Shown here: positions 19,815 to 52,217 of the stretch, in pieces
How positions within the stretch are numbered: the first letter of the stretch is position 1
Layout: every line of letters starts with the position of its first letter
From: an uncultured Flavobacteriaceae bacterium
GTDB taxonomy: Bacteria > Bacteroidota > Bacteroidia > Flavobacteriales > Flavobacteriaceae
Direction of reading: 5' to 3'
Assembly (NCBI GenBank): GCA_947503105.1
Contig: CANNCM010000001.1
Coordinates: forward strand, 540,221-604,220
Length of the DNA stretch: 64,000 nt
Notes under the pieces: generated by a model
What the model was told of the DNA's origin: nothing
Database searches by the model: none
The model's input: only the letters and a program-made list of their open reading frames with translations
Translations under genes and position numbers: made by a program

Positions 19815-19928
19815 TTATAGACAACAACGGTCTGGTTCTTCTACTTCTAAATTATTAAAAACAGATACGTTACTTTTTACTGCTTGTGTTTGATATTGAA
19901 GGTTTTTTTCAAAATTAAATCCCTTCAT
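19815..19928 (-). pseudogene. 5' relic of a Type III restriction enzyme (Res) gene
   Basis: Not in the ORF track. MKGFNFEKNLQYQTQAVKSNVSVFNNLEVEEPDRCCL*; resembles Res/DEAD-helicase N-termini; its ATG overlaps the rhuM stop (ATGA). Confidence 0.5.
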
Positions 19929-20743
19929 AATACTTCAATATTTAGTTTGCTAAATGCGAAGATTTTTTTGCCTAAGTCTTTTAAACTTGCTCCAATATGG
20001 TAGGTTTGGTTATCGATAATTAGAAAACGATCGTGGTACTTTTGGCTTGTTTTTACTGTTACCTTTTTGTATTGGTGGTTGTATTTATCAATATCTAATT
20101 GCAGTTGTTTTGACACCTGTTTTGTTATTAGTGTAAACTCTATGTCTGGATATTTAGTAAAAAGAGTTAATACCGTTTCATCTATATAATTATCGATTAA
20201 CAGCACCTTTTTTACTGCTGTTTTTAGTAGGTTGTTTACCAATACATAAGCATCAAATATTTGTCCCTCAAAAAATACACCTTGATTAGGCGGTAAATTG
20301 GTTTCTAACTTTAAAGCTATTTGATTTACTTTTTCGTTTAATTGTCCTACATTATTTTCAATTTCATTAATTCTATGATTAACGGCATACCCTTTTAATA
20401 AAATAGCTTTTAAAATTTTATTTGCCCAAATTCTAAATTGAATACCTTGTGACGATTTTACGCGATACCCTACAGAAATAATAACATCTAAATTATAATG
20501 TTCTATTTGCCTTGTAACGGTTCTGCTGCCTTCTTTTTGAACTGTCGCAAAATTTGCGACAGTTGCTAATTCTTTTAGTTCTTCTTTTAATGCATTGTTT
20601 ATATGCTTACCAATGGTTTTTATATCCCGATTAAAAAGAGTTGCTATCTGATGTCTGTTAAGCCACACTGTTTCATTTTCGATGCGAACCTCTATTTTAT
20701 TTGTAGTTTTGTGTGCTTGATATAAGATGATTTCATTTTTCAT
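19925..20743 (-). CDS. rhuM: RhuM-family protein with C-terminal phospholipase-D-like segment
   Basis: EVRIENETVWLNRHQIATLFNRDIKTIGKHINNAL...VISVGYRVKSSQGIQFRIWANKIL; C-terminus YHDRFLIIDNQTYHIGASLKDLGKKIFAFSKL. Confidence 0.82.
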   Translation of the reverse strand: MKNEIILYQAHKTTNKIEVRIENETVWLNRHQIATLFNRDIKTIGKHINNALKEELKELATVANFATVQKEGSRTVTRQIEHYNLDVIISVGYRVKSSQGIQFRIWANKILKAILLKGYAVNHRINEIENNVGQLNEKVNQIALKLETNLPPNQGVFFEGQIFDAYVLVNNLLKTAVKKVLLIDNYIDETVLTLFTKYPDIEFTLITKQVSKQLQLDIDKYNHQYKKVTVKTSQKYHDRFLIIDNQTYHIGASLKDLGKKIFAFSKLNIEVL

Positions 20744-22131: not shown

Positions 22132-23121
22132 CTAACCAAGAAGTTTCACCACATCTTTAGCAAAATAGCTGGCAATGCTATCAGCGCCAGCACGTTTAAA
22201 CGCCATGGTGGTTTCTAGCATCACTTGATCGTGATCGAGCCATCCTTTTTCGCTTGCCGCCTTGATCATGGCATACTCGCCACTCACTTGATAGGCTGCA
22301 ACAGGCACATCAAATTCATTTTTTACCTCTCTGATGATATCCAAATAGGCCAATCCAGGTTTGACCATCACAAGGTCTGCACCTTCATCAATATCCATTT
22401 CGGTTTCGCGGAGGGCTTCAAAGCGGTTGGCATAGTCCATTTGGTAGGTTTTTTTGTCCTTCGGAATATGATCTTTTGCTGCTGGTGCAGAATCCAGTGC
22501 ATCTCTAAACGGGCCATAAAATGAGGAGGCATATTTGGCACTGTAGCTCATAATGCCAGTATTTGTAAATCCATGGTCTTCAAGCGCTTCTCGAATGGAT
22601 AAAATGCGGCCATCCATCATATCGCTAGGCGCCACAAAGTTGGCACCAGCTTCGGCGTGAGACACACTCATCTCTGCCAGAACATCAACGGTAGTGTCGT
22701 TAACGATTTTTCCGTTTTCGATAATGCCATCGTGGCCATATATAGAATAGGGATCCAACGCAACATCTGTCATAACCAACATGTCTGGGCAGGTATTTTT
22801 TATGGTTTTTATGGCGCGTTGCATCAACCCATTGGGGTTCAGTGCTTCTGTACCCCGATTGTCTTTAAGGTTGTCATCAACTTTTACAAATAATAAAACC
22901 GCCTTAAGCCCCAAAGACCATAAGAGTTTTACCTCTGCTTGAAGTGTATCCAAACTAAAACGGTAATAATTGGGCATGGATGGAATTTCATCCTTCACCC
23001 CTTTGCCTTCAACTACGAAAAGAGGGACTAAAAAGTCATTTGGTGTAATGCTGTTTTCACGCACTAAACTTCGAATCGATGCGTTGGCGCGTAAACGTCT
23101 GTTTCTTCTTAATGGATACAT
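22132..23121 (-). CDS. hemB: delta-aminolevulinic acid dehydratase
   Basis: LAYLDIIREVKNEFDVPVAAYQVSGEYAMIKAA; VMTDVALDPYSIYGHDG. Confidence 0.95.
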   Translation of the reverse strand: MYPLRRNRRLRANASIRSLVRENSITPNDFLVPLFVVEGKGVKDEIPSMPNYYRFSLDTLQAEVKLLWSLGLKAVLLFVKVDDNLKDNRGTEALNPNGLMQRAIKTIKNTCPDMLVMTDVALDPYSIYGHDGIIENGKIVNDTTVDVLAEMSVSHAEAGANFVAPSDMMDGRILSIREALEDHGFTNTGIMSYSAKYASSFYGPFRDALDSAPAAKDHIPKDKKTYQMDYANRFEALRETEMDIDEGADLVMVKPGLAYLDIIREVKNEFDVPVAAYQVSGEYAMIKAASEKGWLDHDQVMLETTMAFKRAGADSIASYFAKDVVKLLG

Positions 23122-23152
23122 AATTAATAGTTTTAAGCTTTAAGCCAAAAGC

Positions 23153-23512
23153 TTAAAGTGATTTTTTAATGGTTTTGATTAATGAAAATAACATTTTTTT
23201 AATTTCATCTATTTTTTTCAATAGTGTTTTAGAATCTTTTGTAGAGATAAAGTTTAATTCACTTGACACCAAAATCAAGTACTCTAACTCATGAGCAGAA
23301 CCTGATGAAATATAGAGGAATCTTATTAACTCTTTCTGAGTTTCTCTACCACAACCCTCTACAATATTGGTGGGTACAGACAAGCTTGCACGGTTAATTT
23401 GTGAAACAAGATTGAATTGCTCAGACTTTGGAAAAGTTGAAGTGATCTGATATATATCAAGCACAAGTTCATGAGACTTTTGCCATACTTTGTAATTTTT
23501 ATAATCGACCAT
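23153..23512 (-). CDS. four-helix bundle protein (23S rRNA intervening-sequence protein family), copy 1
   Basis: MVDYKNYKVWQKSHELVLDIYQITSTFPKSEQFNLVSQINRASLSVPTNIVEGCGRETQKELIRFLYISSGSAHELEYLI; family hallmark sequence. Confidence 0.9.
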   Translation of the reverse strand: MVDYKNYKVWQKSHELVLDIYQITSTFPKSEQFNLVSQINRASLSVPTNIVEGCGRETQKELIRFLYISSGSAHELEYLILVSSELNFISTKDSKTLLKKIDEIKKMLFSLIKTIKKSL

Positions 23513-23550
23513 AACTTTTATCTTTAAACTTACAGCTTTAAGCCAAAAGC

Positions 23551-23910
23551 TTAAAGTGATTTTTTAATGGTTTTGATTAATGAAAATAACATTTTTTTAA
23601 TTTCATCTATTTTTTTCAAAAGTGTTTTAGAATCTTTTGTAGAGATAAAGTTTAATTCACTTGACACCAAAATCAAGTACTCTAACTCATGAGCAGAACC
23701 TGATGAAATATAGAGGAATCTTATTAACTCTTTCTGAGTTTCTCTACCACAACCTTCTACAATATTGGTGGGTACAGACAAGCTTGCACGGTTAATTTGT
23801 GAAACAAGATTGAATTGCTCAGACTTTGGAAAAGTTGAAGTGATCTGATATATATCAAGTACAAGTTCATGAGACTTTTGCCATACTTTGTAATTTTTAT
23901 AATCGACCAT
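23551..23910 (-). CDS. four-helix bundle protein (23S-IVP family), copy 2
   Basis: Protein identical to copy 1 (119 aa). Confidence 0.9.
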   Translation of the reverse strand: MVDYKNYKVWQKSHELVLDIYQITSTFPKSEQFNLVSQINRASLSVPTNIVEGCGRETQKELIRFLYISSGSAHELEYLILVSSELNFISTKDSKTLLKKIDEIKKMLFSLIKTIKKSL

Positions 23911-23948
23911 AACTTTTATCTTTAAACTTACAGCTTTAAGCCAAAAGC

Positions 23949-24308
23949 TTAAAGTGATTTTTTAATGGTTTTGATTAATGAAAATAACATTTTTTTAATT
24001 TCATCTATTTTTTTCAAAAGTGTTTTAGAATCTTTTGTAGAGATAAAGTTTAATTCACTTGACACCAAAATCAAGTACTCTAACTCATGAGCAGAACCTG
24101 ATGAAATATAGAGGAATCTTATTAACTCTTTCTGAGTTTCTCTACCACAACCTTCTACAATATTGGTGGGTACAGACAAGCTTGCACGGTTAATTTGTGA
24201 AACAAGATTGAATTGCTCAGACTTTGGAAAAGTTGAAGTGATCTGATATATATCAAGCACAAGTTCATGAGACTTTTGCCATACTTTGTAATTTTTATAA
24301 TCGACCAT
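23949..24308 (-). CDS. four-helix bundle protein (23S-IVP family), copy 3
   Basis: Protein identical to copies 1 and 2 from MVDYKN; the longer listed start (24377) lies inside hemF. Confidence 0.9.
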   Translation of the reverse strand: MVDYKNYKVWQKSHELVLDIYQITSTFPKSEQFNLVSQINRASLSVPTNIVEGCGRETQKELIRFLYISSGSAHELEYLILVSSELNFISTKDSKTLLKKIDEIKKMLFSLIKTIKKSL

Positions 24309-24354
24309 AACTTTTATCTTTAAACTTATAGCTTTAAACTTACAGCTTTTAGCT

Positions 24355-25266
24355 TTAAACTGAAGCAGCCCATTCAACAGGGTTTTTTAAGACTTCAATT
24401 AATTTTTCTTCTTCACTACCTTCTTCAGGGTGATGGTCATAAACCCATTGTACATGCGAAGGTAAACTCATCAAAATACTTTCAATTCTACCATTAGTTT
24501 TTAGGCCAAACAAGGTCCCTTTGTCATGCACTAAATTGAATTCCACATAACGCCCTCGCCTGATTTCTTGCCAATCGCGTTGAGCTTCTGTGTATGTTAG
24601 GTGTTTTCTTTTTTCAACAATGGGGGTGTAAGCTTCCAAGAAACTATCGCCAACTTCTGTAACAAAAGCATACCATTGTTGCATATTCATCTCGTTGTTG
24701 GCTTTACAATAATCAAAAAACAAACCGCCTATACCGCGGCCTTCGTTTCTGTGGCTGTTATAGAAATATTCGTCGCAACGTTTTTTGTAATCTTCATAAA
24801 AGGTTTTATTGTGTTTATCACAAGCTGTTTTACATACGCTATGGAAATGCTTTGCGTCGTCTTCAAACAAATAATAAGGGGTTAAATCTTGTCCGCCACC
24901 AAACCATTGATCTACGATAGTTCCTTTTTTGTCATACATTTCAAAATAGCGCCAATTGGCATGGACGGTGGGCACCATTGGATTTTTTGGGTGTAGGACT
25001 AAACTCAAACCACAAGCAAAAAAATCAACCTCACCTACATTAAAATAAGCTTGCATGGCTTTAGGAAGTGGGCCATGGACTTTAGAAATATTGACGCCCC
25101 CTTTTTCAAAAACATTACCGTTTTGAATGACTCGTGTGCGACCTCCACCGCCTTCTTTGCGTTGCCATAAATCTTGCTTAAAAACGGCCTCACCATCAAT
25201 AGCTTCTAACGCAGAAGTAATCTGATCTTGAAGAGTTTCTATATAGTTGTAAAAGCGGTCTTTCAT
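24355..25266 (-). CDS. hemF: oxygen-dependent coproporphyrinogen III oxidase
   Basis: GGVNISKVHGPLP, WFGGGQDLTPYYLFEDDAKHFH, RRGRYVEFNLVHDKGTLFGLKTNGRIESILMSLP. Confidence 0.95.
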   Translation of the reverse strand: MKDRFYNYIETLQDQITSALEAIDGEAVFKQDLWQRKEGGGGRTRVIQNGNVFEKGGVNISKVHGPLPKAMQAYFNVGEVDFFACGLSLVLHPKNPMVPTVHANWRYFEMYDKKGTIVDQWFGGGQDLTPYYLFEDDAKHFHSVCKTACDKHNKTFYEDYKKRCDEYFYNSHRNEGRGIGGLFFDYCKANNEMNMQQWYAFVTEVGDSFLEAYTPIVEKRKHLTYTEAQRDWQEIRRGRYVEFNLVHDKGTLFGLKTNGRIESILMSLPSHVQWVYDHHPEEGSEEEKLIEVLKNPVEWAASV

Positions 25267-25277
25267 TGCTATGGCGA

Positions 25278-26303
25278 TTAAGCGTTATATGATTTTACGG
25301 CATCAATAAACGCTTTGGCATGATCTACAGGGATGTTAGGCAATATCCCATGACCAAGATTTACAATGTATTTATCTTTACCAAAAGCATCAATCATTTG
25401 ATGCACCATCGTCTTAATTTCTGAAGGGGGAGACAGCAATCTAGAAGGATCAAAATTTCCTTGAAGTGTGATATTCCCTCCTGTCAAATAGCGAGCATTT
25501 CTAGCCGAGCATGTCCAATCGACACCCAAGGCAGAAGCATTTGATTTTGCCATTTCACCCAATGCAAACCAACACCCTTTTCCAAAGGCAATCACTGGAG
25601 CATCGTCTTTGAGCGCTTCAATTATTTGATTGATGTATTGCCACGAAAATTCTTGATAATCTGTAGGAGACAACATACCCCCCCATGAATCAAAAATTTG
25701 TATGGCATTGACGCCCGCTTTTATTTTTTCTTTTAAATAAGCAATAGTGGTGTCGGTAATTTTTTGCAATAGCTGATGCGCTGCAACAGGGTTTGAAAAA
25801 CAGAACGCTTTTGCTTTGTCAAAATTTTTGCTGCCTTGACCTTGTACACAATAACACAAAATGGTCCATGGCGATCCTGCAAAACCGATAAGAGGAATTT
25901 CATCATCGAGCAGCTCTTTGGTGGCTGTAATGGCTTGATAGACATAGTCTAACGCTTCTTTTACATCTGGAATGATAACATTGTCGACATCTTTTTGCGT
26001 ACGAATAGGGTTTGGCAAATAGGGGCCAAAATTGGGCTTCATCTCTACTTCGATATTCATGGCTTGCGGAATGACTAATATGTCGCAAAACAAGATGGCG
26101 GCGTCCATGCCAAACCGTCGAATGGGTTGAACCGTAATTTCACTGGCGAGTTCCGGTGTTCTACAGCGTGTAAAAAAATCATACTTTTCTCTAATGGCCA
26201 TAAATTCTGGCAAATAACGCCCTGCTTGACGCATCATCCATACTGGCGGCCTTTGTACAATTTCTCCTTTTAAAGCTCTTAAAAATAAATCGTTTTTAAT
26301 CAT
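25278..26303 (-). CDS. hemE: uroporphyrinogen decarboxylase
   Basis: [37 protein letters not shown]. Confidence 0.95.
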
Positions 26304-26309
26304 TCTTTT

Positions 26310-27893
26310 CTATTTAGAAATATAATTTTCATTCACCAATTCGATGACGCTTTCAACCGTAGGAATCTTAGCGACTCTTACATCTTTAAAGTGTTTTGTG
26401 GCCTCTCTGGCTGTGGTTTCACCAATGCAATAAGCAATACAAGATGGGGTGTTATTTTTTAAAAAACTATGAATCGTTGAAGGGCTGTAAAACATTACGC
26501 CTTCTACAGATTCGGGAAGTTTTGGCGCCTCGAGTTTTGTACTGTAGGCCGCTATTTCATTTACTTTGATATTGTTTTTTGTTAAAATTGTAGGGAGATC
26601 ATCCATTCTAATATCACTACAGAAATAGGAAACTTCCGTTCCGTCTAAAAACTCAACAAGATGTTCAGCGAGTATTTTTGCGTTTTTGGCACTGTGCTTA
26701 ACAGGGCCAATTTTTTGTTCAATTCGTTTTTTTGTACGCCGTCCTACACAATATATTGTTTTGAACTTTAGGTCTTCAGCCGCACAATTATTCAAAAGTG
26801 CTTCAACACCATTTTTACTTGTGATGATGACGTTGTCGTGAGGTTTTTTGAGGAGTGAGGTTTTAATCCTATTCGGAGTGGTTTTTATAAAATCGGAGCT
26901 TTCAACTTTTATGCTTTTTACAAACAAATCTTTCTGACCTTCACTCAAAATTTTTGATGAAAAAATAGAAGTCTCTTGTTGTTGTAGTGTAGTTTTACCA
27001 ATTAAATTCTTTCCTCCACGAGCTATAATAAATTCTAAACACTCCTCTACAAGAGTGTGATGTTTACCAAGCGGCGCACTGCGTTTTGCTTCTACTTTCT
27101 TGGTGCCGTCTTCACTTAAAACGATGCCATGAAAGTGTACTTCTTCATTTTTTATAAAAGCTAATGCTCCAATAGGGGCACTACAGCCACCTTCCATTTT
27201 GTTGAGAAAAGTGCGCTCCATAGTGGTGCAAATCTGTGTGTCTTCGTCATTTAGTGTTGCACAAGCTTCAAAGGTTTCGCGCTCCGATTCAAGACAAGCA
27301 ATCATGATAGCACCTTGTGCTGGTGCAGGAACCATCCACTCCAAGTTGACAGCATTTTCTGGAGTAAGACCAATTCTTCCTAAACCCGCTGCTGCAAAAA
27401 CAGCACCATTCCAGTCGCTGTTTTCTTCTAGTTTTTTTAGTCTTGTATTGACGTTTCCTCTGAGACCCACAACGGTATGTGTTGGATATCTGTCAAGCCA
27501 TTGCGCTTTTCTTCTTAGACTTCCAGTTGCGACAATAGCATTTTTTTGAGCCAAAAATTCTTCATTGTTTTTAAAAACGAGTGTATCTCTAACATTCCCA
27601 CGTTTTAAAACAGCCGCTTGTAGGATGCCTTTGGGAAGTAATGTTGGAACATCTTTTAGAGAATGGACTGCAATATCAATCTCCTCGTTGAGTAACGCAA
27701 TATCCAAAGTGCGAGTAAAAACACCAGTAATACCAAGTTCATAAATAGGTTGATTTAAGACTAAATCTCCAGTTGATTTTACCGCAATTATTTCTGTAGT
27801 ATGCCCCAAATGCTCTAATTGTGATTGTACAGTTTTTGCTTGCCACATTGCAAGTTGACTATCTCGTGTTCCTATGCGAATGGTTTTGGGCAT
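26310..27893 (-). CDS. hemC: fused porphobilinogen deaminase / uroporphyrinogen-III synthase
   Basis: N-terminal HemC (RIGTRDSQLAMWQAKTV...MEGGCSAPIGALA) continuous with HemD-like C-terminus (NVIITSKNGVEALL...VMFYSPSTIHSFLKN...CIGETTAREA). Confidence 0.88.
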   Translation of the reverse strand: MPKTIRIGTRDSQLAMWQAKTVQSQLEHLGHTTEIIAVKSTGDLVLNQPIYELGITGVFTRTLDIALLNEEIDIAVHSLKDVPTLLPKGILQAAVLKRGNVRDTLVFKNNEEFLAQKNAIVATGSLRRKAQWLDRYPTHTVVGLRGNVNTRLKKLEENSDWNGAVFAAAGLGRIGLTPENAVNLEWMVPAPAQGAIMIACLESERETFEACATLNDEDTQICTTMERTFLNKMEGGCSAPIGALAFIKNEEVHFHGIVLSEDGTKKVEAKRSAPLGKHHTLVEECLEFIIARGGKNLIGKTTLQQQETSIFSSKILSEGQKDLFVKSIKVESSDFIKTTPNRIKTSLLKKPHDNVIITSKNGVEALLNNCAAEDLKFKTIYCVGRRTKKRIEQKIGPVKHSAKNAKILAEHLVEFLDGTEVSYFCSDIRMDDLPTILTKNNIKVNEIAAYSTKLEAPKLPESVEGVMFYSPSTIHSFLKNNTPSCIAYCIGETTAREATKHFKDVRVAKIPTVESVIELVNENYISK

Positions 27894-27896
27894 ATT

Positions 27897-29144
27897 TTAG
27901 GTGTCTAATTGAAAAATTTTCTGAATCAATTCCAAGCTGGTTTCGCTAGAATTGTTTTCGTCCTTAAGGTGGTGCGCAAAATGATTGGTAATTTTTTGAA
28001 CGATCTGAGTACTCAGCAAGTCGGCCTGAGATTGATTGAAGTTTTCAAGTTTTTTGCGTTGAGTTTCAATTTCTGCTTCCGCAAAAACATTTAATTTAGC
28101 TTTTAGGGCCTTAATCGTTGGTGCAAATTTTCGGTGTTCTAACCACGCTAAAAACTCACTTTTGATGTCTTCAATAATAGCTTCGGCAACAGGAACAAAC
28201 TTTTTTCTTTTTGCAAGGGTCTTATCTGTAATATTAGATAATTCGTCTAAATGAGTAAGTGTAACATTTGGTAGACTATTAACGTTCTCATCTACATTTT
28301 TTGGAATGGATAAATCAAGAATTAATAGCGCTTTTTGATTTTGAATAATTTGTTTGTCAATAGTAGGATTTTGTGCGCCAGTGGCTACAATCAAAATGTC
28401 AGCTTTATCAATTTCTTCATGAAGTTGGCTGTAATCTTTGACTAACACTTTAAATTTTCCAGCAATTTTTTCGGCACGTTCTCGAGTTCTATTGATAAGG
28501 GTAATGTGTTCGTTTTTGGTATGCTTGATGAGATTTTCACAAGTATTTCTTCCAATTTTTCCTGTTCCAAAAAGAAGAATATTTTTTGAATTAACATCTT
28601 CTATAGAATTGAGAATATACTGCACAGAAGCAAATGAAACAGAAGTCGCTCCAGACGATAGTTTTGTCTCCGTTTTGATGCGTTTACTGGCTTGAATAAC
28701 GGAGTTGATGAGCCGTTCTAAAAAGGCATCAAGAAGGTTGTATTTTTTTGAAACTCGAGCACTTGATTTTAATTGACTTATGATTTCAAAATCTCCAAGA
28801 ATCTGACTGTCTAGCCCTGCACCAACCCTAAACATATGCTCGACGGCATCATCATCCTTAAGAATGTAGGCTACAGATTCGAACGCTTTTGCACTACCAG
28901 AAGTGTTTTCACAAAGTAAATGAATAAGCTCTGAAGGGTGTTGAACAAAACCATAAATTTCGGTGCGGTTGCAAGTCGATGTTGCAACAATACTTTTTAT
29001 ACCTTTAGTCTTGGCTTGATCCAAGAGCGCCGCTTTTTTGGTAGGACTCAAACTAAAATCTCCACGCAATTTTGCATCTGCTTTCTTGTAGCTGATACCA
29101 ATAACATAAAAAGAAATTTTTTTATCGCCCTTGTGTTGCTCCAT
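27897..29144 (-). CDS. hemA: glutamyl-tRNA reductase
   Basis: IVATSTCNRTEIYGFV, SSGATSVSFASVQYIL, GTGKIGRNTCENL. Confidence 0.93.
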   Translation of the reverse strand: MEQHKGDKKISFYVIGISYKKADAKLRGDFSLSPTKKAALLDQAKTKGIKSIVATSTCNRTEIYGFVQHPSELIHLLCENTSGSAKAFESVAYILKDDDAVEHMFRVGAGLDSQILGDFEIISQLKSSARVSKKYNLLDAFLERLINSVIQASKRIKTETKLSSGATSVSFASVQYILNSIEDVNSKNILLFGTGKIGRNTCENLIKHTKNEHITLINRTRERAEKIAGKFKVLVKDYSQLHEEIDKADILIVATGAQNPTIDKQIIQNQKALLILDLSIPKNVDENVNSLPNVTLTHLDELSNITDKTLAKRKKFVPVAEAIIEDIKSEFLAWLEHRKFAPTIKALKAKLNVFAEAEIETQRKKLENFNQSQADLLSTQIVQKITNHFAHHLKDENNSSETSLELIQKIFQLDT

Positions 29145-52174: not shown

Positions 52175-52217
52175 CCGAATATTACGTCAAATGGCCGAAT
52201 ATTACGTCAAATGGCCG
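52175..52217. repeat. 20-bp tandem direct repeat (2.15 copies)
   Basis: CCGAATATTACGTCAAATGG | CCGAATATTACGTCAAATGG | CCG. Confidence 0.9.

Follow-up and report, generated by a model that had tools for sequence, protein, structure and literature searches.

Three tandem S23 genes in a flavobacterial heme operon, bordered by mirrored heptanucleotide arrays, as copies of a candidate mobile intergenic cassette

A stretch of 64,000 nucleotides from an uncultured Flavobacteriaceae bacterium (contig CANNCM010000001.1, positions 540,221 to 604,220; hereafter the window) carries three tandem genes of the S23 family inside a heme biosynthesis operon. The operon lies on the minus strand in the order hemA-hemDC-hemE-hemF-[S23 x3]-hemB, and the S23 genes are bordered by arrays of a degenerate heptanucleotide, here called arms. 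The features, in window coordinates and with the basis of each assignment, including the list of open reading frames (ORFs), are as follows.

23949..24308, minus strand: S23 (four-helix-bundle) gene copy 1, hemF-proximal, 119 aa (ORF list; the identical protein matches PF05635, E 4e-39)
23551..23910, minus strand: S23 gene copy 2, codon 17 GTA, silent (ORF list)
23153..23512, minus strand: S23 gene copy 3, hemB-proximal, codons 52 GAG and 97 CTA, silent (ORF list)
24309..24354, minus strand: outer upstream arm, heptad array AGCTAAAAGCTGTAAGTTTAAAGCTATAAGTTTAAAGATAAAAGTT of the WWAAGYT type (sequence; duplex with the outer downstream arm)
23122..23152, minus strand: outer downstream arm GCTTTTGGCTTAAAGCTTAAAACTATTAATT, with heptads of the reverse-complement type, running up to the hemB start codon (sequence)
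23911..23948, minus strand: copy 1/copy 2 junction, where AAAGCT links a downstream arm to an upstream arm (sequence)
23513..23550, minus strand: junction of copies 2 and 3, identical type of fusion, 38 nt (sequence)
24355..25266, minus strand: hemF, oxygen-dependent coproporphyrinogen oxidase, upstream neighbour (PF01218, NF003727)
22132..23121, minus strand: hemB, porphobilinogen synthase, downstream neighbour (PF00490, NF006762)
25278..29144, minus strand: hemE, hemDC and hemA, the upstream remainder of the heme operon (ORF list; order compared in 100 relatives)

The three S23 ORFs are 360 bp long, recur with a period of 398 bp and encode identical 119-aa products, as a preliminary description of this DNA had stated; the Tandem Repeats Finder agrees with a 398-bp unit in 3.0 copies and 99% matches at 23136-24337. 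Alignment of the copies likewise bears out the three variable sites reported there, at codons 17 (GTG/GTA, Val), 52 (GAA/GAG, Glu) and 97 (CTT/CTA, Leu), all of them synonymous third positions, and reveals one difference between the genes, at 23533. Three random changes would all be synonymous with a chance of about 0.24 cubed, or 1.4%, and the silence of all three differences may be taken as mild evidence of selection. The ratio of nonsynonymous to synonymous divergence (dN/dS) of the S23 gene, 0.05-0.12, is that of a protein under purifying selection, in line with the selection on the protein that had been proposed.

The arms, which are absent from the preliminary description, explain both the duplication of the S23 gene and its losses. 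The hemF stop codon lies where the upstream array starts, and the two outer arms are predicted to pair with -17.8 kcal/mol. A genome-wide scan for the heptad pattern gave one exact match in the host genome, at the S23 locus, and the other intergenic regions of the window are without period 7. In one relative from the same genus (G003) only the first and last few S23 codons are left between the repeat arrays, and in two others (G006 and G007) the gene is gone and CAGCTTAAAGCTTAAAACTATTAATT alone persists as a heptad scar. Another relative (G004) carries the 15-bp AGCTTAAAGCTTAAA once in each arm, and the scar is the product expected from recombination between two such copies. The junctions of the window, in which a downstream arm is joined to an upstream arm, are the reciprocal kind of product, so that gain and loss of the S23 gene both pass through the arms. 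The sequences show that recombination among the arm repeats produced the triplication and likewise deleted the copies of relatives. Tandem amplification, as suggested earlier, is supported by the sequence; the event is specific to this lineage, modest in scope and clear in its molecular cause.

Mirrored arms are found throughout the S23 family. The flanks of 89, then 137, non-identical S23 genes were surveyed, mostly from Bacteroidota and including Planctomycetota, Deltaproteobacteria, Nitrospinota, Omnitrophota and others. Both flanks have a period of 7 nt (lag-7 match about 0.44 vs about 0.28), with a best lag of 7 in 99 of the 137 loci and of 8 in 23; loci of the latter kind rule out a strict 7-nt period. 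Across the 137 loci the arrays consist of degenerate units of about 7 nt, and the one downstream of the ORF reads as the reverse complement of its upstream partner. The inverted-arm score is 13.1 for cognate arms, compared to 7.4 for non-cognate arms and 7.6 for control ORFs (137 genes; permutation 0/10,000), and 37% of the S23 loci lie above the 99th percentile, compared to 0.9% of 538 control ORFs. Where a genome holds several S23 genes, their own arms score 12.9 and other arms of the same genome 7.3, the own arm being best in 60 of 73 cases; the repeat sequence is private to each locus, even inside one genome. From one genus to another the repeat type at the hem locus changes in both flanks at once, as from AAGCTTA to CAGTTAA/TTAACTG (hem-set permutation, p 0.0002). 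Twelve cyanobacterial plasmid loci, which had not been used in forming the idea, scored 16.8 vs 8.2 (0/10,000), and here the arrays mirrored on the two sides of the S23 ORF include (GGGAACA)n and (GGGGAGT)n. The predicted sense-strand RNA duplex of the arms reaches -24.1 kcal/mol vs -15.4 kcal/mol for sampled, GC-matched mismatched pairs (p 6e-19), and the arms are paired over at least 12 bp in 72% vs 41% of whole-cassette RNA folds. No Rfam family matched the cassette up to E = 1. This architecture is the interesting part of the locus and is statistically well supported.

The position of the gene also recurs. Neighbours were called by a simple longest-ORF rule, and in 121 of the 137 loci the S23 gene lies between two co-directional genes. 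Recurrent junctions, with enzyme names read from the sequences, occur in the hem operon, at fadB-fadA and fadA-acyl-CoA dehydrogenase, and in a methionine-synthase operon. The fadB-fadA junction of the fatty-acid oxidation operon is occupied by a separate subfamily (L017, L021, L022, L023, L025, L028, L032, L194 and L220), and in L194 and L220 another S23 gene follows fadA. On cyanobacterial plasmids, S23 genes are found between CRISPR genes (cas6-cas4 and cas10-cmr3; L271, L276 and L280). The S23 genes of L275 and L272 are antisense, the flanking pairs being ribonucleotide reductase genes and ABC-transporter-type genes; the arms of L275, of GGGGAGT type, are strongly mirrored, which makes operon orientation not absolute.

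The window protein is a plain, full member of the S23 family, as the preliminary assignment to the 23S-IVP four-helix-bundle proteins had it. The match extends over the whole protein for both PF05635 (133.4 bits, cut-off 33.8) and TIGR02436 (131.7 bits, cut-off 24, E 1e-38). An AlphaFold (AF2) monomer model, with a predicted local distance difference test (pLDDT) value of 97, resembles the S23 structures 2gsc and 2rld with template modelling (TM) scores of 0.93 and 0.82. It also resembles Avd, the accessory protein of diversity-generating retroelements (DGRs), at TM 0.81 to 4dwl and 0.78 to Avd in the DGR ribonucleoprotein 8ub7, with 12% identity. A role as DGR accessory Avd/bAvd was considered and rejected, the scores falling below the family cut-offs (36 vs 40 bits and 41 vs 80), and no reverse transcriptase was seen beside the cassette among the ORFs of the window or the annotated plasmid loci. 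The protein is basic, with an isoelectric point of 9.2, and the S23 protein 2gsc is a homopentamer (PMC4990558).

The explanation that we favour, though at somewhat less than an even chance, is that the three genes are tandem copies of a mobile intergenic cassette resembling the intervening sequences (IVSs) of 23S rRNA, with arms that pair, are cut by RNase III and are bound by the encoded protein. Such a cassette would consist of two complementary arrays of degenerate ~7-nt repeats with the S23 ORF as the loop between them. Transcribed with the operon, the arms would fold to a stem, which RNase III might cut by analogy with the IVSs, whose excision by this enzyme is established (PMC4990558); the break would presumably be tolerated because it falls between genes. 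Since Avd works within a DGR reverse-transcriptase ribonucleoprotein, the shared fold suggests that the basic, probably homopentameric S23 protein binds nucleic acid, plausibly its own arms, and thereby may aid the persistence or movement of the cassette. The triplication would have come about as a side effect of recombination between repeats, while selection kept the protein unchanged. Several observations weigh against this reading. A strict per-locus inverted-arm threshold is passed by 51 of the 137 loci only, 16 of 137 pass it as direct rather than inverted repeats, and the loci that enter the arm statistics share ancestry. Among 15 neighbouring cyanobacterial coding sequences (mean 8.9) one scored 26. 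Pairing of the arms is about equally good on the antisense and the sense strand, so that sequence alone cannot tell an RNA from a DNA reading. Some empty hemF-hemB sites have heptads, which could be scars or pre-existing targets. Lastly, about 12% of the S23 genes lie outside a co-directional sandwich and two on plasmids run antisense to the genes on either side, a poor fit to a reading by mRNA processing only.

Mobility is indicated by the synonymous divergence of the cassette and its surroundings. Between the window and the homologue L036 it is 0.30 for S23, compared to 2.9 and saturation for the hemF/hemB flanks; between L036 and L056 it is 0.06, compared to 0.97 and 1.36, and between L036 and L037 the S23 genes differ at 0 of 73 synonymous sites, compared to 0.33 and 0.31 for the flanks. 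Within the window clade the proportion of synonymous differences is 0.10-0.33 for S23 vs 0.44-0.76 for the flanks (Fisher 3e-8 to 9e-15). Fourteen baseline S23 pairs from other loci are mostly near parity with their flanks, apart from a few exceptions, so that a generally slow rate does not account for the low S23 divergence; the contrast to hemF and hemB implies recent travel between species with the junction unchanged. These comparisons indicate that in the window clade the cassette (ORF plus arms) moves between species independently of hemF and hemB; the other S23 subfamilies tested look mostly vertical. Of the mobile or dosage-related element suggested in the preliminary description, the mobile part gains support from this contrast; under the cassette explanation the triplication would not be evidence for heme dosage.

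The same data bear on an explanation that we regard as somewhat unlikely, namely a DNA-level homing element. Here the inverted arrays would act as DNA, as palindromic or cruciform ends or as short stretches of homology at which incoming DNA recombines. The cassette would be moved from one species to the identical junction of another by the S23 pentamer, or by a recombinase or reverse transcriptase of the host, and RNA processing would play no part. The low divergence of the cassette alone at one hemF-hemB junction fits this view, as do the antisense copies, the fold of a reverse-transcriptase accessory protein and the service of the arms as recombination substrates. However, the arms differ between loci, unlike transposon ends, no transposase or integrase generally accompanies the cassettes, and sense-oriented operon positions in 121 of 137 loci are unexpected for a DNA-only element. 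A classical terminal-inverted-repeat transposon or insertion sequence was ruled out, as the arms of one locus resemble those of another no more than background and the ORF is not a transposase. No match to the S23 cassette was found among 50,697 phage records that would point to carriage by phages.

A host-beneficial heme gene is a further alternative, which we consider improbable. The S23 protein of the hem operon would be a small regulator, assembly factor or RNA chaperone kept by selection, and the triplication would raise its dose. The placement of the subfamily speaks for it: about 30 other Flavobacteriaceae carry it in single copy, at several hem junctions, and the gene is not there by chance insertion into the window operon. 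Each of the 27 flavobacterial relatives retrieved with at least 66% identity (L034-L060) has its S23 gene in the hem operon, mostly at hemF-hemB and some at hemE-hemF; in some the S23 gene is directly 3' of hemE with a different gene next, and in others an extra gene separates it from hemF. L061 and remoter homologues, to about 54% identity, are also single-copy members of hem operons. The low dN/dS is equally in favour. Against a heme function stands a very patchy distribution: S23 is present in 3 of 11 genomes of the genus, in triple copy in the window genome alone, in few of 400 sampled members of the family, and rarely in the surroundings of hemB in about 100 relatives. Pseudogenes and relics occur as well, and the apparently broken hem-operon S23 genes of L043, L087 and L259 (in-frame stops or a frameshift) suggest that the gene is dispensable. 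Other subfamilies have the same architecture in fad, met, cas and nrd operons, which makes the cassette, and not heme, the common factor. Patchiness, relics and the contrast in synonymous divergence together rule out a strictly vertical, conserved heme gene. Three diverged copies in all relatives would have refuted the preliminary reading; the relatives show one copy, none, a relic or a scar, and the reading was not refuted by this check. In L095, L120, L123, L128, L142 and L174 the hemF-hemB intergenic region has heptad periodicity without an S23 gene, possibly as scars of lost cassettes, and L095 is a clear relic.

Very improbable, in our view, are passive repeats, that is, AT-rich intergenic heptanucleotide arrays that slip everywhere and owe their complementarity to near-palindromic units such as AAGCTT and GTTAAC. 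TAACTGA-like arrays do occur without S23 genes in Beggiatoaceae, cyanobacteria and some Bacteroidetes (PMC4679880), and heptads are present at some empty sites. Yet the complementarity is to the cognate arm and not to arms of the same genome or the same GC content, it is clear in GC-rich, non-palindromic arrays (L075 and L081) and in those of GGGAACA and GGGGAGT, and the window's other intergenic regions lack the period. The GC-matched, within-genome and held-out controls rule out a chance or low-complexity origin of the arms. An origin of the triplication in misassembly of a single-copy locus is hardly credible: the genome is in 31 contigs and all relatives seen have one S23 copy or none, but the copies bear distinct private differences and the first, outer upstream arm differs by 14 bp in length from the other upstream arms, which argues against a simple assembly duplication, and the contig continues into both flanks.

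Some further observations concern the window and its genome. A gene-poor stretch near hemB encodes a RhuM-like protein (19925-20743, minus strand; PADLOC candidate defence family PDC-S05, E 6e-113), and at 52175-52217 the 20-bp unit CCGAATATTACGTCAAATGG stands twice in tandem, in perfect copies. On contig 2 of the same genome, at 399075 (L004), there is a fourth, truncated S23 gene whose upstream flank is like the end of fadB, and the junction which this flank resembles is the site of another S23 subfamily in many relatives. Contig 1 holds a reverse-transcriptase domain with an internal stop at 402701-403273 (L270).

S23 genes are common and unexplained, and the locus-private, mirrored ~7-nt architecture provides a testable handle on binding and movement; gain, loss and transfer can be followed, as in a small natural experiment, in the window triplication, the scars of relatives and the homologues that occur singly at one junction. 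A bolder proposal, which we think quite unlikely, would place S23 proteins behind heptanucleotide arrays altogether: a ring-shaped, Avd-like pentamer would read mirrored ~7-nt arrays and help to copy or maintain them, as part of an RNA- or reverse-transcriptase-assisted homing cassette that colonises operon junctions across phyla. If true, rRNA intervening sequences, the short tandemly repeated repetitive (STRR) sequences of cyanobacteria and orphan S23 genes would be one system. No description of the hem-operon S23 subfamily or its triplication was found in the literature searched, and none of mirrored heptad arrays around S23 genes, although most subscription journals lay outside the search and a prior description of the arrays is possible.

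Among known systems, the free-standing S23 proteins of PF05635 and TIGR02436 (2gsc and 2rld) have sequence family and fold in common with the window protein, and the known structures make no statement on flanking arrays. The likeness to Avd/bAvd of DGRs (4dwl and 8ub7) is one of fold only, given the low identity and the scores under the cut-offs. S23 genes annotated as 23S_rRNA_IVP have been described inside cas loci and treated as CRISPR-associated functions (PMC3936711). They too lie within operon-like gene clusters; here, however, cas is one among many operon types with mirrored-arm S23 cassettes. Heptanucleotide arrays have been reported from cyanobacteria, Beggiatoaceae and Bacteroidetes (STRR and TAACTGA) with S23 unmentioned; like the arms they are intergenic, lineage- or locus-specific and often just 5' of start codons, but mostly direct repeats were reported, with one indirect set in BOGUAY (PMC4679880). 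The closest parallels are to the 23S rRNA IVSs of Leptospira and Coxiella, in which an S23 ORF also lies in an element bordered by complementary sequences, with sporadic distribution, conserved insertion sites and horizontal acquisition (PMC4990558). The window cassette shares their complementary, stem-capable borders and differs in location, as it stands between hemF and hemB and not in an rRNA helix or gene, and in its arms, built of ~7-nt repeats that each locus has to itself. With such a cassette the concept of the IVS would no longer be confined to rRNA but would cover ordinary operons too, and a reason suggests itself for the heptanucleotide repeats beside S23 genes.
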